23,540 nt of DNA from a virus: IMG/VR virus record IMGVR_UViG_3300032296_002022, positions 1 through 23,540 of that record. The stretch is one strand, 5' to 3'. Below are positions 7,760 through 23,447 of this stretch, piece by piece (position 1 is the first letter of the stretch; the number at the start of each line of letters is the position of its first letter). The notes beneath the pieces are model-generated. The model had not been told where the DNA came from, did not search any database, and was given only the letters and a program-made list of their open reading frames with translations. The position numbers were made by a program, and so were the translations under genes.

Positions 7760-8218
7760 ATGATTAGATATGCAAGCATGGACGACTTTGATAGAATTAT
7801 AGATATGATGAAAAACTTTGCAAATGCAAGTCCATTGAATATCTATCATGATCCTGTATACAATGAAAGAACTGTGAAGAATTCATTGATGCGTATCATA
7901 CGCAATGGTTGTATCATTGTTGCCGATGATGCAGATGGTGTGGCACAAGGCATGATTATTGCAGCCATTGAGCAGGACCTTTGGTTGCCACACATAAAAG
8001 TTCTTAGAGAAATAGCATGGTGGGTAGAACCCGCACATAGAAAAACCACAATGGGATATAAATTAATTCGCCGCTACATGGAAGTAATTGAAACATTAAA
8101 AGAAAAAGATATTATCAATTACGGTACATTAGCAACACTGACTAATAGTCCGATCAAGGGCATGGACCGCTGGGGTTGGCAAAATATTCAACAACACTAT
8201 GTAATGGGAGAAGCATAA
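7760..8218 (+). CDS. GNAT-family acetyltransferase-like protein in the tail gene cluster
   Basis: A 152-residue protein with GNAT layout. It starts MIRYASMDDFDRIIDMMKNF (alpha-1 region). A mid-strand follows (GCIIVADDADGVAQGMIIAA, equal to beta-2/beta-4), then REIAWWVEPAHRKTTMGYKL, where EPAHRKTTMGYKLI corresponds to the acetyl-CoA pyrophosphate loop (V-P-(Q/R)--G-G--L). The loop is altered because the usual second glycine is missing. The end has ATLTNSPIKGMDRWGWQNIQ, like N-----F--R-GF in GNAT proteins. GNAT genes next to the tail hub recur in many phages. The substrate is unknown; modification of a tail or host protein is a guess. Confidence 0.75.
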   Translation: MIRYASMDDFDRIIDMMKNFANASPLNIYHDPVYNERTVKNSLMRIIRNGCIIVADDADGVAQGMIIAAIEQDLWLPHIKVLREIAWWVEPAHRKTTMGYKLIRRYMEVIETLKEKDIINYGTLATLTNSPIKGMDRWGWQNIQQHYVMGEA

Positions 8219-16400: not shown

Positions 16401-18667
16401 CTATTGCTACAGACTTTGCATACAGCATTGGCACCAGCAGTGATTACAGTGCTAACAGCACCATTGTAACAAAATACATGATTGGCCTCACTGACTTTAG
16501 TGCAAGTAAAACAGTTGGTCAGTTTGATAGAGGTCTAGTAGTTGGTAATGGTGACTTAACCAACCGCGGTGAAAATGATGGTTTTGCTACCTTTGGTCTA
16601 AATGTAGTCTGGGATGGAACTGCTAATAGTGCCACAGAATATGGCACAACCACAGGCGTGTTCCCACAGATTCTACTTAAGAGTTATACACAAGGTACAA
16701 ACCAGGCTCAAAGTGGTGCGCTTACTACTTCAGGACCAAGAATTTTATTCTTAAGTGCTAACGGTAATGCATCACAAGATCCATTAACCACATACGCCAG
16801 AGCCACACAAGAACTAGGCAAGATTGCTTGGACTTCAACTACATCAGCATCAACAACTCCTAGCACCACAGGTCCAGCCGCATACATCAGTGCAGTTTCA
16901 CTGAAAGATCAAACTGGTGGTAACCCAGGTGATGTGGGTATGTATTTGGTTGCTTCACCAACCAACAGTGGTACTAACACCAGTGCAGTTGGTGGCATAG
17001 GTGCTAGAGCATTGTGGGCAGGACATCACCAAGGTAACACATTAATTAGTGCAGGTGCTAGAACCAACGGCACCAGTGGTGACATTTATTTTGCACCAGC
17101 ACGTCAAGCCAGCAACCGCGGTAACGCAATGCAAATGGCTGATCAAGTTATTAACACTGGATCAGGTTCAACACAATGGGCCAGAGTTGGTTATGACAAC
17201 CCAAGCGCCAACACTGGTAGTAGAATATTTGTAACCAATGGTTTCAACTCAAGTGGCACACGCAGTGGTAACTTGTCATTGGGCATTAACCGCAATGACA
17301 ACAGTGTTGGCTTTGGTAACAAGTATTGGGCATTCAAACTACAACCAGGCAGTGATAACTTAGTTCTCACAGAAGATGGCACAGTTAGAACCACATTTAC
17401 AGGTGGCAACATCAGTGCTACAGCATTCTATGGTGACGGTGGTAATTTAACCAATGTTACTGCAACAGCAAATACATTTGATAATATTGTTGTTGCAGGT
17501 CAAAGTAATGTTGTTGCAAGTGGTAGCAGTGCATTAACACTTGTTGCTGGCAGTGGTATGACAATTACCACAGATGCATCAACGGATACAATTACATTTA
17601 CATCAACTGGTGGCGGCGGAACATATGGCGATGCTAATGTTGCAACATTCCTTGCTGCATATGGTAGCAATACAATTGTAACCACAGGTAATATTACTGC
17701 TGGTAATACTATCGTAAATGGTGTTACATTCAATGCAAGCAACATTGCACCAACCAGTGGACAAATCCGCTACAACACAGACTTTGGCACACATCAAGTT
17801 GGACTAGATGGCAGCAATGTCATGCTTATGGGTCAAGACCTTGTTGTGTATGCTCGCAATGATGAAGCAACTACATTGCTCAAAGGTGAAGTAGTGCGTA
17901 TCAGCGGCGCAAGTGGTGACAAAGCAACATTAAAGCGTGCAACCAATGACAGTGATGCTAACAGTGCTACCACAATTGGTATTGTTAAGAGTGACATTGC
18001 TGTTGGACAATTAGGTTATGTAGTAAGCCAAGGTGTTGTTAATGGATTGAACCTAGGTGCATATACCTCAGGTGACAAACTGTATTTGGGCAATGTAGCC
18101 GGCACATTTACTAATATCAAACCCAGCGCACCAGAACACTATGTGTTCATTGGTGTTGTTGAAAAAGCCAATGCAGGCAATGGTCAAGTATTAGTGCGTG
18201 TGCAGAATGGTTTTGAACTTGATGAAATACATGACATCAAGTTAACCAGCGTTCAACAAAATGACATGTTGATCCGCAACAGCGGCAATACATTATGGGT
18301 TAACCAAAGCGTCAGCAGTGTTGTTGCTAATACCAATATCACACTCAAGCAGTTTAGTGAAACACGAGTTGCATTGGGCAATGTAACTGGTGATCAAAGC
18401 AGCAACATCAACCTTGCTAACGGATCAATCTTCACAATGACTGCAACTGGTAACATCACAATCAGCAGTGTAACAGGAGCCACAGCAGGTAGCAGTGCTA
18501 CACTGATCATCACACAAGATGGTAGTGGTAACAGATTGTTAACCAGTACAATGAAGTTTGCTGGTGCAAGTAAAACACTAAGCACTGCGGCTGGTGCAAT
18601 AGACATTATTAGTTTGTTCTATGATGGCACAACTTATTACGCATCATTAAGTAAAGGTTATGCATAA
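13493..18667 (+). CDS. Giant tail fibre protein with internal repeats
   Basis: 1724 residues, very rich in Asn, Thr, Ser and Gly, beta-repetitive. Visible modules: an N-terminal Thr/Val-rich region (1-95); a domain beginning NITLKQFQET at about 100-210 that is repeated at the C-terminus as NITLKQFSET (about 1615-1724); TTDLxEGxNLYFTAARVRxN at about 347-372 and 723-748; YGxANVAxFLA-GSNTI-TTGNI at about 452 and 1378; and three copies of the GDGxxL(T/S) fibre motif near 435, 615 and 1310. Residues about 1444-1580 form the widespread virion module with LLKGEVVRISG, VVSQGVVNGLNLGAYTSGDK and PEHYVFIGVVEKA. No enzymatic site is seen. It probably forms a long trimeric fibre that binds host surface polysaccharide. 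Its stop overlaps the LamG gene start by one base. Confidence 0.85.
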   Translation: MANIVVTATPSDVNVTTSISNITVTDSETNVSFNVSTTTNTVNVTTTQSNITVAQGVAVSNNEIRAAISNVFPILYDVTNGIISIDEDSINIANAILNGNITLKQFQETVYNHGNVTSGTLSVNISNGTIHTATLGANLSQISFSNLSAGGSATIILRQDPIGHRHLITTDSSWNNWLFVGENESLALDPNTYTAISVTYDGTKYFAAVGSFDTTIITNSQLANSNIIINGQTFELGSSGNITNFLANITMQQNLTVDGALTAESISSNTTVFANGIITSNTYVVTPQLYLGTPNTSNDKPITAYGAGGSESAAGQLVYDANDANETGKDGVWKFANDTSGTYYKLPTSTTDLLEGNNLYFTAARVRGNVSAVDAGGAGSFTYNSGTGAFTYTGASDAEIRSALSATSPITYNSGTGAIGLSGTANITTTGNISGGYILGNGAFLTGVATPYGNANVADFLANGFGSNTITTTGNIFTGNAEVRSLILNPLAANALITAENAGDDLYIQGDGVTIAIDRSTAGDDSFRVINDRDGSVLFQVGPDSGTLSPLCGTRVTGDLYVGTNDASNITGTFYVRASSGDINTKGGLETDGQIRTDSGGLAIYAPSGNIQTDQYFLGDGSLLSGIASNTGVVSYIATVPLTVGGNLTVNGNINATGNLNYQNVTDLYVTDQKITLNSNAATNSNVQIISNRPTATSTELKWNEQSTRWEFTNDGTTYYPIPTSTTDLAEGTNLYFTAARVRSNISVGENLTYSNSTGIIGMSNSLANINSISTETGQDLVLISEDPVRIRARQRNAVITDSANIAGAGYGLHVTTTFYNDPPFLTYSGSGELKTIVLDGTVTAGSNVITGVSNIQDLKGNPLTIGNIAANYVFMDEPLVSVSTFFPAGTYVVSASGSNIFMSANALYSDSLSVSGGLGSFSPGARDTVTGLLVAFESNYDGGGANAQQVDFNLMVDPKPRYGYPSTGPIATDFAYSIGTSSDYSANSTIVTKYMIGLTDFSASKTVGQFDRGLVVGNGDLTNRGENDGFATFGLNVVWDGTANSATEYGTTTGVFPQILLKSYTQGTNQAQSGALTTSGPRILFLSANGNASQDPLTTYARATQELGKIAWTSTTSASTTPSTTGPAAYISAVSLKDQTGGNPGDVGMYLVASPTNSGTNTSAVGGIGARALWAGHHQGNTLISAGARTNGTSGDIYFAPARQASNRGNAMQMADQVINTGSGSTQWARVGYDNPSANTGSRIFVTNGFNSSGTRSGNLSLGINRNDNSVGFGNKYWAFKLQPGSDNLVLTEDGTVRTTFTGGNISATAFYGDGGNLTNVTATANTFDNIVVAGQSNVVASGSSALTLVAGSGMTITTDASTDTITFTSTGGGGTYGDANVATFLAAYGSNTIVTTGNITAGNTIVNGVTFNASNIAPTSGQIRYNTDFGTHQVGLDGSNVMLMGQDLVVYARNDEATTLLKGEVVRISGASGDKATLKRATNDSDANSATTIGIVKSDIAVGQLGYVVSQGVVNGLNLGAYTSGDKLYLGNVAGTFTNIKPSAPEHYVFIGVVEKANAGNGQVLVRVQNGFELDEIHDIKLTSVQQNDMLIRNSGNTLWVNQSVSSVVANTNITLKQFSETRVALGNVTGDQSSNINLANGSIFTMTATGNITISSVTGATAGSSATLIITQDGSGNRLLTSTMKFAGASKTLSTAAGAIDIISLFYDGTTYYASLSKGYA

Positions 18668-19428
18668 TGTTTGCATCACGCGGCGGATTTAATTTTACTA
18701 AAAGAAATGCTAGGACATTAACCGCCACAGCACAGGCACAGGTTAGCACCGCTGAAAGTAAATTTGGTGGTGCTAGTGCTCGCTTTGATGGCAGTGGTGA
18801 TTACATCACAATGACTGCAAACAGTGAAGTATCATTTGGCACTGCGGATTTTACTATGGAGTTTTGGTTTAGAACTGTAAACAAACCCAGTGGCGCCAGT
18901 GGCAATGGACGCTTCCCAGTAATCTTTAAGACCAATGGTGCAAGTACATTTACCAATGGTAACAACTGGTTAGGTGTTTATGATCGCCATTCAACTATCA
19001 ACAACACAAAACTAAGTGTATTTTGTCCAACATTTTATTTTAGTAATGGTAGCGTAGCATTATTAACCAGCACCAGCAATGTAAGCAATAATGTTTGGAC
19101 ACATGTTGCAATTGTGCGTGACAGCGGAGATTTTAAATTATTCTATAATGGTAATTTAGAAGCCACACGAACAGGCACAGCAAACCTCAACATTGATACA
19201 GCCAGCGGCACAACCACTGTTAGAGATATTAGAATTGGCATGGGTGACACACTCAACGACAACAGTTACAATGGTTATGTTGATGAGGTTAGAGTTAGTA
19301 AAAATGTACGATATACTGCTAATTTTACACCATCAGCATATTCTTTTACCAGTGATGCAAACACATTATTATTAATGCATGCTGATGGCACCAATGGCAG
19401 CACAACTTTCACAGATGATAATACCTAA
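18667..19428 (+). CDS. LamG / concanavalin-A-like lectin domain protein
   Basis: 253 residues with one LamG-type domain. Readable blocks are GGASARFDGSGDYITMTANS, FGTADFTMEFWFRT, NNVWTHVAIVRDSGDFKLFY with NGNLEAT, and YNGYVDEVRVSKNVRYTANF. These are the usual strands of the jelly roll that binds sugars. The end (NTLLLMHADGTNGSTTFTDD, then NT and stop) is normally the linker into a second LamG repeat, so the protein seems cut down to one unit. The first 45 residues (RTLTATAQAQVSTAESKFGG) are also linker-like. It overlaps the fibre gene by one base and is therefore likely to bind the fibre or host glycans. Confidence 0.85.
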   Translation: MFASRGGFNFTKRNARTLTATAQAQVSTAESKFGGASARFDGSGDYITMTANSEVSFGTADFTMEFWFRTVNKPSGASGNGRFPVIFKTNGASTFTNGNNWLGVYDRHSTINNTKLSVFCPTFYFSNGSVALLTSTSNVSNNVWTHVAIVRDSGDFKLFYNGNLEATRTGTANLNIDTASGTTTVRDIRIGMGDTLNDNSYNGYVDEVRVSKNVRYTANFTPSAYSFTSDANTLLLMHADGTNGSTTFTDDNT

Positions 19429-20890: not shown

Positions 20891-21322
20891 ATGCAAAGCA
20901 AGTATAACGGTGGCAAGCACTATTTGATCAATCCACAAAAGAATACAAAGTTTAAGCAACAGTGGGGCATCAGCACCTACGACCTAGCGCGAGTAGAGGA
21001 TACCACACCAGATGCAATCAACATGCGTGTAATGAAGTTTGGCACACCATTTCAACGCAGAAGCAAGATAACCTTTTGGGAAGAGCAGTTTGGTAAGACA
21101 CTGGGTGAATTGGCTGCAGAGCGTGGTGTGCATCCACTTACAGTTACCAATAGATATAAAATGTATAGATCATTGGATCTACTACCAGGTCACAAAGCCA
21201 GAGAAGATCTGCGTGATAACAGTTGGATGACAGAAAAGAAATACAAGCGTTGTCAAGAGCGCACATTCTTTACATTAGAATGGGCATTGCAACGATTGGA
21301 AAAACTTAATTGGGAATTATAA
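20891..21322 (+). CDS. Helix-turn-helix DNA-binding protein
   Basis: 143 residues with two HTH-like segments. The first is YDLARVEDTTPDAINMRVMK (about 28-47). The second and clearer one is KTLGELAAERGVHPLTVTNR (about 74-93), which follows the usual rule: helix, turn with Gly (ERGV), recognition helix. The rest is basic, with Trp/Phe residues and a helical end (LEWALQRLEKLNWEL). Such proteins act as small regulators or DNA-binding factors in phages. It is preceded by AAGGAG (20879-20884) and followed by a GC-rich hairpin. It may control the neighbouring promoter regions, where direct repeats and a palindrome lie; this link is inference. Confidence 0.65.
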   Translation: MQSKYNGGKHYLINPQKNTKFKQQWGISTYDLARVEDTTPDAINMRVMKFGTPFQRRSKITFWEEQFGKTLGELAAERGVHPLTVTNRYKMYRSLDLLPGHKAREDLRDNSWMTEKKYKRCQERTFFTLEWALQRLEKLNWEL

Positions 21323-21445: not shown

Positions 21446-21477
21446 TCCCTGCTACAATAATATTTAGCAAAAACCAC

Positions 21478-21506
21478 AAAAAAGCCTTGACTTACAGGGT
21501 TTTTTT
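21478..21506 (+). terminator. Weak terminator overlapping a promoter
   Basis: AAAAAAGCCT (21478-21487) pairs with AGGGTTTTTT (21496-21505), with one G-G mismatch and only three GC-containing pairs. The loop and the stem end contain the -35 box TTGACT. The T-run ends at 21506. The weak stem makes the terminator call moderate. Confidence 0.4.
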
Positions 21507-21514
21507 GTTATACT
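21487..21514 (+). promoter_or_regulatory. Sigma-70 promoter for the polymerase gene
   Basis: TTGACT (21487-21492) and TATACT (21509-21514) are 16 bases apart. The predicted transcript starts near 21521, inside the first of two direct repeats, about 138 bases before the polymerase ATG. Same -35 box as the promoter at 20394. Confidence 0.75.
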
Positions 21515-21596: not shown

Positions 21597-21656
21597 ATGT
21601 CTTTAACTAAGTGTTTAACAGTTACAACTTGTTCAAACAGATATGGAGTTATGTGA
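21597..21656 (+). CDS. Possible 19-residue leader peptide before the polymerase
   Basis: ATG 21597 lies 4 bases behind GGGGAC and opens a 19-residue frame (MSLTKCLTVTTCSNRYGVM) that stops two bases before the polymerase ATG at 21659. The close spacing would allow coupled translation. The evidence is only the ribosome-binding distance and spacing. Confidence 0.25.
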   Translation: MSLTKCLTVTTCSNRYGVM

Positions 21657-21658
21657 AT

Positions 21659-23212
21659 ATGAGTTATGAATTAAAAAATTATTCAATTGGTGTTATTGCT
21701 GATCATATGCAGCAATTTTATCCGATTAAAACAAAAAGCAATAACAGCATCAGTTATGCGAGTATTGCACAAAAGTATATCGATATCACAGTAAATGCAC
21801 TTCTTTATGGAGAAGCAGGTGAAAACACTGATACTTATTACATTTGGAAGAAAAGTTTAAGTGATCAACTTACAAACAAGTATAATGGTAACAACATGTG
21901 GTATACATGGTTGACTCAGAACTACCCCTTATTTCAAACAATACGCAACGGATATAATATCACAGATCCACAAGCGAGTCTTGTGCAGTCATATGTGAGT
22001 GTAGAGGAGTTGATTCTTTACACATATCATAACAATCATAGACTTGCAAGTCTAATTGATATTCCCAGAGGTGATGTAACAGTTACGCCCATTGATACAG
22101 AGTCATTGAGCAATTACAGAGACAACTTAGTATACTACAATGCCAATGAGGGGGATAAAGTTGCACGAGATAGACGCAACAGAGATATTCACAGGTGTGG
22201 ACTCATACTTGCACTTGCAGAGATCAATAGCGGTCAATTGGTGCAGGGTCACAGCAACAGTGATTGGCCACGTCATTACCTCACAGGTGTTAACTTACAA
22301 AATGGCACAGCCAGTGGTGTGCGTGAAGCCAGTTTAGGTAAAACCTACAAGTACGATATCAACAGCAGTGCATTTGCATTTAAGGCCACAGTAATACAAG
22401 AGTATGCACGGTCACAGGGCAGTGACTATGTGCCACGCACAATGTTGCAATTGCTGTCAGATAAGCGTAGTGTGCGTGATATGTTGGCCTATGATGTGCT
22501 TAAGAGCACACGCACCACAAAAGAACATAAACTAGAGTTGATCAAAGAAGCCATTACCAGCATGGGCTTTGGTTGTGATCCCACTAGACCACGCAATGCA
22601 ATTGAAAACATTATTTGGAATCGCGAGGACTATGCTCGCTTTACGGATCATCCATGGGTTAAAGAGTTTCAAACGGAACAACAGTTGTTTACGGAGATTG
22701 TAAGACAAACCTACACCAAAGAATGGACGAAGGCAAATATTCCTGCCGCACTTAAGGGTAATCGCTATAGCCAAAGCAAACTAGAAGCATACTTGTATGC
22801 GCAGTTTGAAACTGAATTGATGCAGAAGATTCAGCACAGCATTGGCAGTGACAACATCATACTGTGGGTGCATGACTGTGTTTATACTAATAAAAGAATT
22901 GACTTAGACTACTTTAATCGTGTGCCCAAGGCCATGGGCTATCCATTGATTCGTTTCAGCAGTGAACGAGTGGAACCTGTGCGATATAACAAACTTGATA
23001 ATCTTACCTCAGACTTACAGCAATTAAGTCATCGCAATAACATTGCACAAGAAGAAGCAGTAGCACAGGATTATACCAGCAGTTGGATTGACAGTGCCAC
23101 AGCAGAAATATTTTCAAATCGAATTAACATTCCCATTGCCAATGTGGAAATTGAAACTGCTTGGGAAGAATTTAACATAGAGAGGTCAAAACAATATGAA
23201 AAATACATTTAA
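21659..23212 (+). CDS. Compact palm-domain polymerase of the family A / single-subunit RNA polymerase superfamily
   Basis: ATG 21659 has a GGAG box (21645-21648), so the 517-residue form is preferred over a GTG start at 21611. NLQN (212-215) followed by VREAS (221-225) matches the DPNLQNIP...IRQAF region of family A DNA polymerases. Motif A is DINSSA (Asp233), close to T7 RNA polymerase DGSCSG, and Ala238 sits at the steric-gate position (Glu710 in Klenow, Gly542 in T7 RNAP). Motif B is KEAITSMGFG, with Lys296 and Phe304 in the spacing of K-(8)-YG, but no Arg four residues before the Lys. Motif C is WVHDCVYT (His405, Asp406), much like VHDCYWT of mitochondrial RNA polymerase. Motif spacing (63 and 110 residues) is nearer to Klenow than to T7 RNAP. 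No exonuclease motif is seen. It may be a replicative or a transcribing enzyme. Confidence 0.6.
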   Translation: MSYELKNYSIGVIADHMQQFYPIKTKSNNSISYASIAQKYIDITVNALLYGEAGENTDTYYIWKKSLSDQLTNKYNGNNMWYTWLTQNYPLFQTIRNGYNITDPQASLVQSYVSVEELILYTYHNNHRLASLIDIPRGDVTVTPIDTESLSNYRDNLVYYNANEGDKVARDRRNRDIHRCGLILALAEINSGQLVQGHSNSDWPRHYLTGVNLQNGTASGVREASLGKTYKYDINSSAFAFKATVIQEYARSQGSDYVPRTMLQLLSDKRSVRDMLAYDVLKSTRTTKEHKLELIKEAITSMGFGCDPTRPRNAIENIIWNREDYARFTDHPWVKEFQTEQQLFTEIVRQTYTKEWTKANIPAALKGNRYSQSKLEAYLYAQFETELMQKIQHSIGSDNIILWVHDCVYTNKRIDLDYFNRVPKAMGYPLIRFSSERVEPVRYNKLDNLTSDLQQLSHRNNIAQEEAVAQDYTSSWIDSATAEIFSNRINIPIANVEIETAWEEFNIERSKQYEKYI

Positions 23213-23447
23213 CTTAAGGCCGCGAGATTTAGAATGCATAGATCATCCCATGCATATCAATTGGGATACTGCGGATGCCGCCGGCAATCCATCATTGTGT
23301 TGTAGTATTTGCGTTAGTAAAACCCGAGGATCGCGCCTAGGCCAACCTCGTTTTATTAGATTTTTAAAAACCATGGAAATACAGCCTTTAATTGATATGG
23401 GCGTAGAAGTAAGATTTGATATAGACAAATATTGCAAGGATGTATAA
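23196..23447 (+). CDS. Small Cys-containing protein of unknown function
   Basis: 83 residues, starting MKNTFNLRPRDLECIDHPMH, overlapping the polymerase end by 17 bases. Cys residues form a CCSIC cluster (about 35-39) with further Cys14, Cys80 and nearby His residues, so metal binding is possible, though no standard zinc finger is recognised. A basic stretch follows (SKTRGSRLGQPRFIRFLKTM). The overlap suggests expression with the polymerase. Its stop overlaps the next start by one base (TAATG). Confidence 0.55.
   Translation: MKNTFNLRPRDLECIDHPMHINWDTADAAGNPSLCCSICVSKTRGSRLGQPRFIRFLKTMEIQPLIDMGVEVRFDIDKYCKDV

Follow-up and report, generated by a model that had tools for sequence, protein, structure and literature searches.

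Minimal superfamily A polymerases of phages that lack the glutamate sugar gate, with a tentative role in priming

It has long been asked how polymerases of a single fold switched between deoxyribonucleotides and ribonucleotides. In Klenow, E710 keeps ribonucleotides out by steric hindrance, and Glu710 together with Phe762 forms the gate of Pol I (PMC9324360). Small relatives of Pol I have been described in mobile elements. The TV-Pol proteins of Sputnik V13, virophages and transposons were proposed to act as primase and polymerase (Iyer, Abhiman and Aravind 2008; PMC2579912). CCPol-MP of SCCmec is a demonstrated primase (Bebel 2020; PMC7581432, PMC10061031). CCPol, the sole TV-Pol tested, prefers dNTPs and retains the equivalents of E710 and F762 (PMC7581432). 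By analogy, TV-Pol and CCPol are the closest described kind to the phage enzymes presented here, and they were overlooked in a sequence-only reading of the same DNA. These natural enzymes, of roughly 350-520 aa with one of 767 aa, keep the frame of a DNA polymerase with the sugar gate gone, and the gate-less members come from a number of divergent lineages and include one from a cultured phage.

The window, the whole 23.5-kb stretch of DNA that was analysed, is a tailed-phage record; its first 19.4 kb or so carry the head and tail genes, and an early-type region follows. The ORF, its homologs, an AlphaFold model and a fold search mark the gene at 21659..23212 (+) as a minimal superfamily A polymerase, open throughout and encoding 517 aa from an ATG. 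A GTG upstream, at 21611, would lengthen the protein, but the relative in L004, which is 82% identical, begins at the same Met with the identical MSYELKNYSI. The two genes differ mostly by silent changes (dN 0.14, dS 0.88, dN/dS 0.16). The shared Met and the low dN/dS show a genuine gene kept by purifying selection. Each degenerate DNA pattern written for a polymerase motif has a single match in the window and none in 100 shuffles, and a regex of the motif chain, run across 6,453 ORFs, matches only members of the family. Elsewhere in the window, a protein with a LamG/concanavalin-like lectin domain (18667-19428; Pfam E 3.7e-17) follows the long fibre gene and likely serves host attachment. A weak match to GNAT-like acetyltransferases (7760-8218) lies inside the tail module, and L003 has one too.

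The 517-aa protein had no match in a sequence search of Pfam, PHROGs, NCBIfam, PDB sequences, 50,697 phage records and 72,556 plasmids, and searches of these sources with two sequences found nothing either. In the close relative L005, the slot of the polymerase is taken by a protein of 352 aa that shows this motif chain, and the two kinds share a colinear palm. An alignment of both kinds retrieved homologs from other IMG/VR phages, with lengths of 463, 485 and 512 aa. A profile built without the phage 7757 protein then matched that 767-aa protein of the cultured Desulfovibrio phage 7757 (E 2e-12). The active site stays conserved among members down to about 20% identity. The family is real, rare among the collections searched and very diverse; it is undescribed, and scattered over phages. 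The uncharacterised phage proteins A0A6J5NAK1 and A0A6J5NHK2 are probable further members. A scan for NLQN-x16-YDxN gave 16 stretches, only one of them genuine (L094, the contig of L004), and scans of genome contigs found no further relatives. Two alignments made for aiming the searches held artificial rows and were excluded as evidence. Weak matches in MT835981 and MT836032 (L086, L087) were rejected as chance, the surrounding DNA being bacterial-looking. These two records, labelled bacteriophage, resemble bacterial chromosome and carry a threonyl-tRNA synthetase, a two-component system and a DXP reductoisomerase.

A nine-sequence palm profile of the family matched family A DNA polymerases over the whole palm (score 31.1, P 0.0022), and none of 120 column-shuffled references did as well (maximum 21.5). 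The hairpin, motif B and motif C stand in register, and motif A is a few residues off. With two-sequence profiles alone hhalign was marginal (P 0.016-0.02), and it became convincing only with nine sequences. Against phage single-subunit RNA polymerases the nine-sequence profile scored 17.6, within its shuffles (8 of 120 as good). The references comprised only five DNA polymerases and four RNA polymerases, so the missing RNA polymerase kinship is a weaker result than the DNA polymerase kinship. In Pfam, the family lies below detection by DNA_pol_A (PF00476), and the single-subunit RNA polymerase entry PF00940 gave no match.

From two sequences AlphaFold reached a pLDDT of 30; from eight family sequences it reached about 70-94 across most of the stretch between residues 141 and 445, and residues 1-140 and the final 50-70 of this model are unreliable. 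Strands 229-235, 400-404, 407-410 and 432-438 and helix 288-303 are modelled as in Pol I. In the PDB fold search, Klenow was the best match (E 7.5e-6), followed by apicoplast Pol I, Bst and Taq enzymes, and RNA polymerases were absent from the first 50 matches. Two matches, 4dqq and 4dqr, are by their titles Bst E658A ternary complexes with rCTP, and Bst E658 is the counterpart of Klenow E710. Global TM-scores are low (0.30-0.40) and the rmsd large, which we put down to the unreliable ends of the model. Matches in BFVD include the Zamilon virophage replication protein. A resemblance of DINS to the family B motif DxxSLYP was dropped, motif C being HD and the fold matching family A.

Prediction thus yields a right-hand palm with a confident palm/fingers core, and the profile kinship is with family A DNA polymerases and not with an unrelated family. 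The earlier proposal is borne out as to a minimal polymerase, free of an exonuclease, within the Pol I/T7 RNAP superfamily. Its picture of a balanced hybrid of DNA and RNA polymerase is not, as profile and fold both side with family A and the features that recall RNA polymerases are limited to GRxY and the losses of Glu and Phe762. Profile and model together indicate that the protein is a distant Pol I relative within superfamily A, consisting of palm and fingers only.

The motifs had been placed correctly from the sequence, with NLQN at 212-215, VREA at 221-224, DINSSA at 233-238, F304-G305 and VHDCVYT at 404-410. At 22265..22306 (+), WPRHYLTGVNLQNG is a beta-hairpin with a conserved Arg (R205; GRxY in relatives) and the Q of NLQN, and corresponds in hhalign register to the T/DxxGR motif of superfamily A. 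The Arg is conserved in the family and unaligned in the 352-aa branch. NLQN itself, read earlier together with VREA as a family A signature, is present but is no strict family feature, relatives having NIQN, ALQG or SLQG. Its equivalents in relatives are preceded by GRxY, the Tyr of which is common to single-subunit RNA polymerases and missing from DNA polymerases.

Motif A (YDINSSAF, 22352..22375, +) carries the catalytic Asp233 and, at the steric-gate position, Ala238. Motif B, the O helix (22544..22573, +), reads K296-x3-T300-x3-F304-G305. An alignment of nine family members with reference polymerases agrees with the earlier assignment of Ala238 to Klenow Glu710 and of Phe304 to T7 RNAP Tyr639, and equates Phe304 also with Klenow Tyr766, K296 with Klenow K758/T7 RNAP K631 and T300 with Klenow F762. 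Across the family, the Glu710 position, five residues past the motif A Asp, is Ala, Ser or Val, with Glu in 0 of 8 testable members; at the Phe762 position members have Thr or Asn, and none has Phe or Tyr; and the Tyr766/Tyr639 position is Phe, Asn or Tyr. On these alignments, the missing Glu gate is a property of the whole family. Asp233, Lys296, Gly305, Glu384, His405 and Asp406 are invariant in members where present. Glu384 is family-specific and lies ahead of motif C in E384TELM (22808..22822, +). The motif C hairpin (WVHDCVYT, 22865..22888, +) carries the catalytic Asp406, and the two palm Asp stand in Pol I order and register. Motif C had been taken as a mark of RNA polymerases; the DNA polymerase of phiKMV carries VHDAVYT, hence VHDxVYT is not specific to them. 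The reported DNA-polymerase-like spacing holds. The distance from motif A to motif C is 173 aa, and 166 aa in the 352-aa protein of L005. DNA polymerases range from 163 to 232 aa here, and phage RNA polymerases, whose palm insertions the family does not have, from 213 to 275.

In relatives, the gene order is a conserved gene of about 100 aa, an HTH protein, a gene of 114-122 aa, the polymerase, small genes, terS, terL and portal. The upstream HTH-like protein of the window (143 aa; 20891..21322, +), kept in relatives, has very weak sigma-70 similarity. A terminator-like hairpin (21476-21508) overlaps a sigma-70-like promoter with an extended -10 (21487-21514), together spanning 21476..21514 (+), both as consensus matches only. 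The polymerase gene is preceded by sigma-70-like promoters, and promoter-like sites are not enriched over shuffles. The 3' end of the gene is overlapped by the gene for an 83-aa protein with CxxH...CCxxC (23196..23447, +), whose homologs lie at the corresponding position in L004 and nearby in L005. This protein is a possible zinc ribbon and a candidate partner of the polymerase. A different CxxH...CxxC protein overlaps the polymerase stop in L123; L121 and L122 have no such Cys protein.

We tentatively favour, at slightly less than an even chance, a minimal primase or primase-polymerase that starts phage DNA chains in the manner of TV-Pol and CCPol. The two metals would sit at Asp233 and Asp406, the template would be held by Arg205, and Lys296 with Phe304 would take the incoming triphosphate. 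With Ala for the gate Glu and Thr for Phe762, ribose would not be excluded; the primers would therefore be RNA or mixed, and the host replisome would extend them. Computation shows the family, the class of fold, the catalytic residues, the lost gate and the purifying selection, and detected no further replication enzyme beside the gene; the priming role, the sugar use and any role of the Cys-rich neighbour are inferred. The family A profile match, the AlphaFold palm and the lack of a Glu gate in the members argue for it, as does the precedent of TV-Pols as proposed primases and CCPol-MP as a demonstrated one (PMC2579912, PMC7581432, PMC10061031). Polymerase-bearing contigs of 20, 25 and 29 kb gave no match to DnaB, PolA, PolB, PolIII-alpha or the DnaG zinc model, the last of which also misses T7 gp4, and this too supports priming. 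Phage 7757 adds a further argument. Its unannotated 142-kb genome (OR395405; L126/L136) has a T4-like replisome with clamp loader, PolB, UvsX and a DnaB-type helicase, so its family member is not the main replicase; no primase was recognised in its replication region. The phage also encodes a ClpP-like protease. Counted against priming are that no helicase gene was seen beside the polymerase, the missing Arg of RxxxK, the preference of CCPol for dNTPs and its retained E710 and F762, the fragmentary genomes, which may hide other enzymes, some phage relatives without the gene in the slot, and the two members without the Cys-rich neighbour.

A primer-dependent DNA polymerase for gap filling, replication or lesion bypass, which tolerates ribonucleotides or excludes them through another residue, appears quite unlikely. 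Pol I is the closest relative by profile and fold, the motif spacing is that of DNA polymerases, and bypass enzymes likewise have no exonuclease; but it would be unusual for an enzyme that uses dNTPs to have lost Glu710 and Phe762 throughout its family, and phage 7757 already owns a replicative PolB. Transcription of phage genes by a very small RNA polymerase, of an origin separate from the T7-type enzymes, is improbable too. It would fit the absence of a Glu gate, the resemblance of the GRxY hairpin to T7 RNAP DWRGRVY and of K-x7-[F/Y]-G to T7 RNAP K631...Y639G, and the place of the phage 7757 member among baseplate genes, outside the replication cluster. Profile kinship and fold speak against it, as do the missing palm insertions, a size below that of T7-type enzymes with promoter-binding domains, and the lack of any repeated phage-specific promoter motif upstream of the window genes. 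The sequence-only reading had left a choice between a phage transcriptase and an unusual replicative or priming enzyme; the priming option is favoured, and the transcriptase is disfavoured by the missing palm insertions, the lack of repeated phage promoters and the sigma-70-like promoters ahead of the gene. An accessory or conflict enzyme outside replication and transcription, such as one for template-independent or host-targeting nucleotide transfer, would suit the variable slot but is very unlikely, since the active site is complete and of the template type, with the hairpin Arg and the O-helix Lys, and is kept to about 20% identity.

The polymerase seems to behave as a module that phages exchange. 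L004 and L005 (contigs 3300043424_000193 and _000100), from the same metagenome, share gene order, a 67% identical terminase and a portal start that is near-identical by eye, and hold very different polymerase branches in one slot. The polymerases of the window and L004 are 82% identical, while the TerL proteins of L004 and of L002, the near-twin of the window, share only 43% identity. Swapping of PolA and PolB types has been described for other phages (PMC11348598). Some relatives have no polymerase in the slot: L003 has none, L008 and L009 have DNA methyltransferases there, and L010 has an AAA ATPase, which makes the region before terL an exchange hot spot. The methyltransferases lie at 683-6026 of L008 and the ATPase at 1553-2596 of L010. 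Between terL and portal, an FkbM-like methyltransferase is found in L002 (1032-2563, with a glycosyltransferase-like protein) and L004 (6491-7195).

The family may explain how replication starts in small phages without a recognised primase. Since gate-less DNA-polymerase frames exist in natural enzymes, the sugar-switch question becomes directly testable with purified proteins. Somewhat unlikely, in our estimate, is the broader proposal that a family making RNA or mixed primers arose inside the Pol I lineage by gate loss, independently of T7-type RNA polymerases, so that ribonucleotide polymerisation would have originated twice within superfamily A, here in one of its smallest known cores.

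TV-Pols resemble the phage family in their superfamily A core without nuclease, often of 400-600 aa and in small viruses (PMC2579912), and the hairpin Arg, two palm Asp and fingers Lys are found in both. In the RxxxK of TV-Pols, the phage family keeps the Lys, which is invariant, and replaces the Arg by L, I, T or V. TV-Pols are tied to D5-like helicases, whereas neither such a helicase nor a transposition gene was seen fused or adjacent in the gene lists of the incomplete phage contigs. The phage family also has its own N-terminal region and no gate Glu, and a search of Microcystis phage LMM01 gave no match. As TV-Pols were compared by description, plus the Zamilon fold match, the Arg is missing and no helicase link was seen, the family is not filed as TV-Pol. 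CCPol-MP and the PolA-SSB primases share with it an A-family polymerase domain standing alone and need a small neighbour protein for priming (PMC7581432, PMC10061031); the phage candidate neighbour is Cys-rich. CCPol adjoins a helicase and, as the main difference, keeps E710 and F762. From Klenow, Bst and T7 gp5 the family departs in lacking Glu710, Phe762 and Arg754 equivalents, exonuclease and a detectable Pfam DNA_pol_A match, while palm/fingers fold, motif order and spacing are alike. Set apart from single-subunit RNA polymerases (T7 gp1, N4 RNAPII) by profile and insertions, it shares with them the absent gate Glu, GRxY and K-x7-[YF]-G, and its HDC motif is also that of N4 RNAP2.
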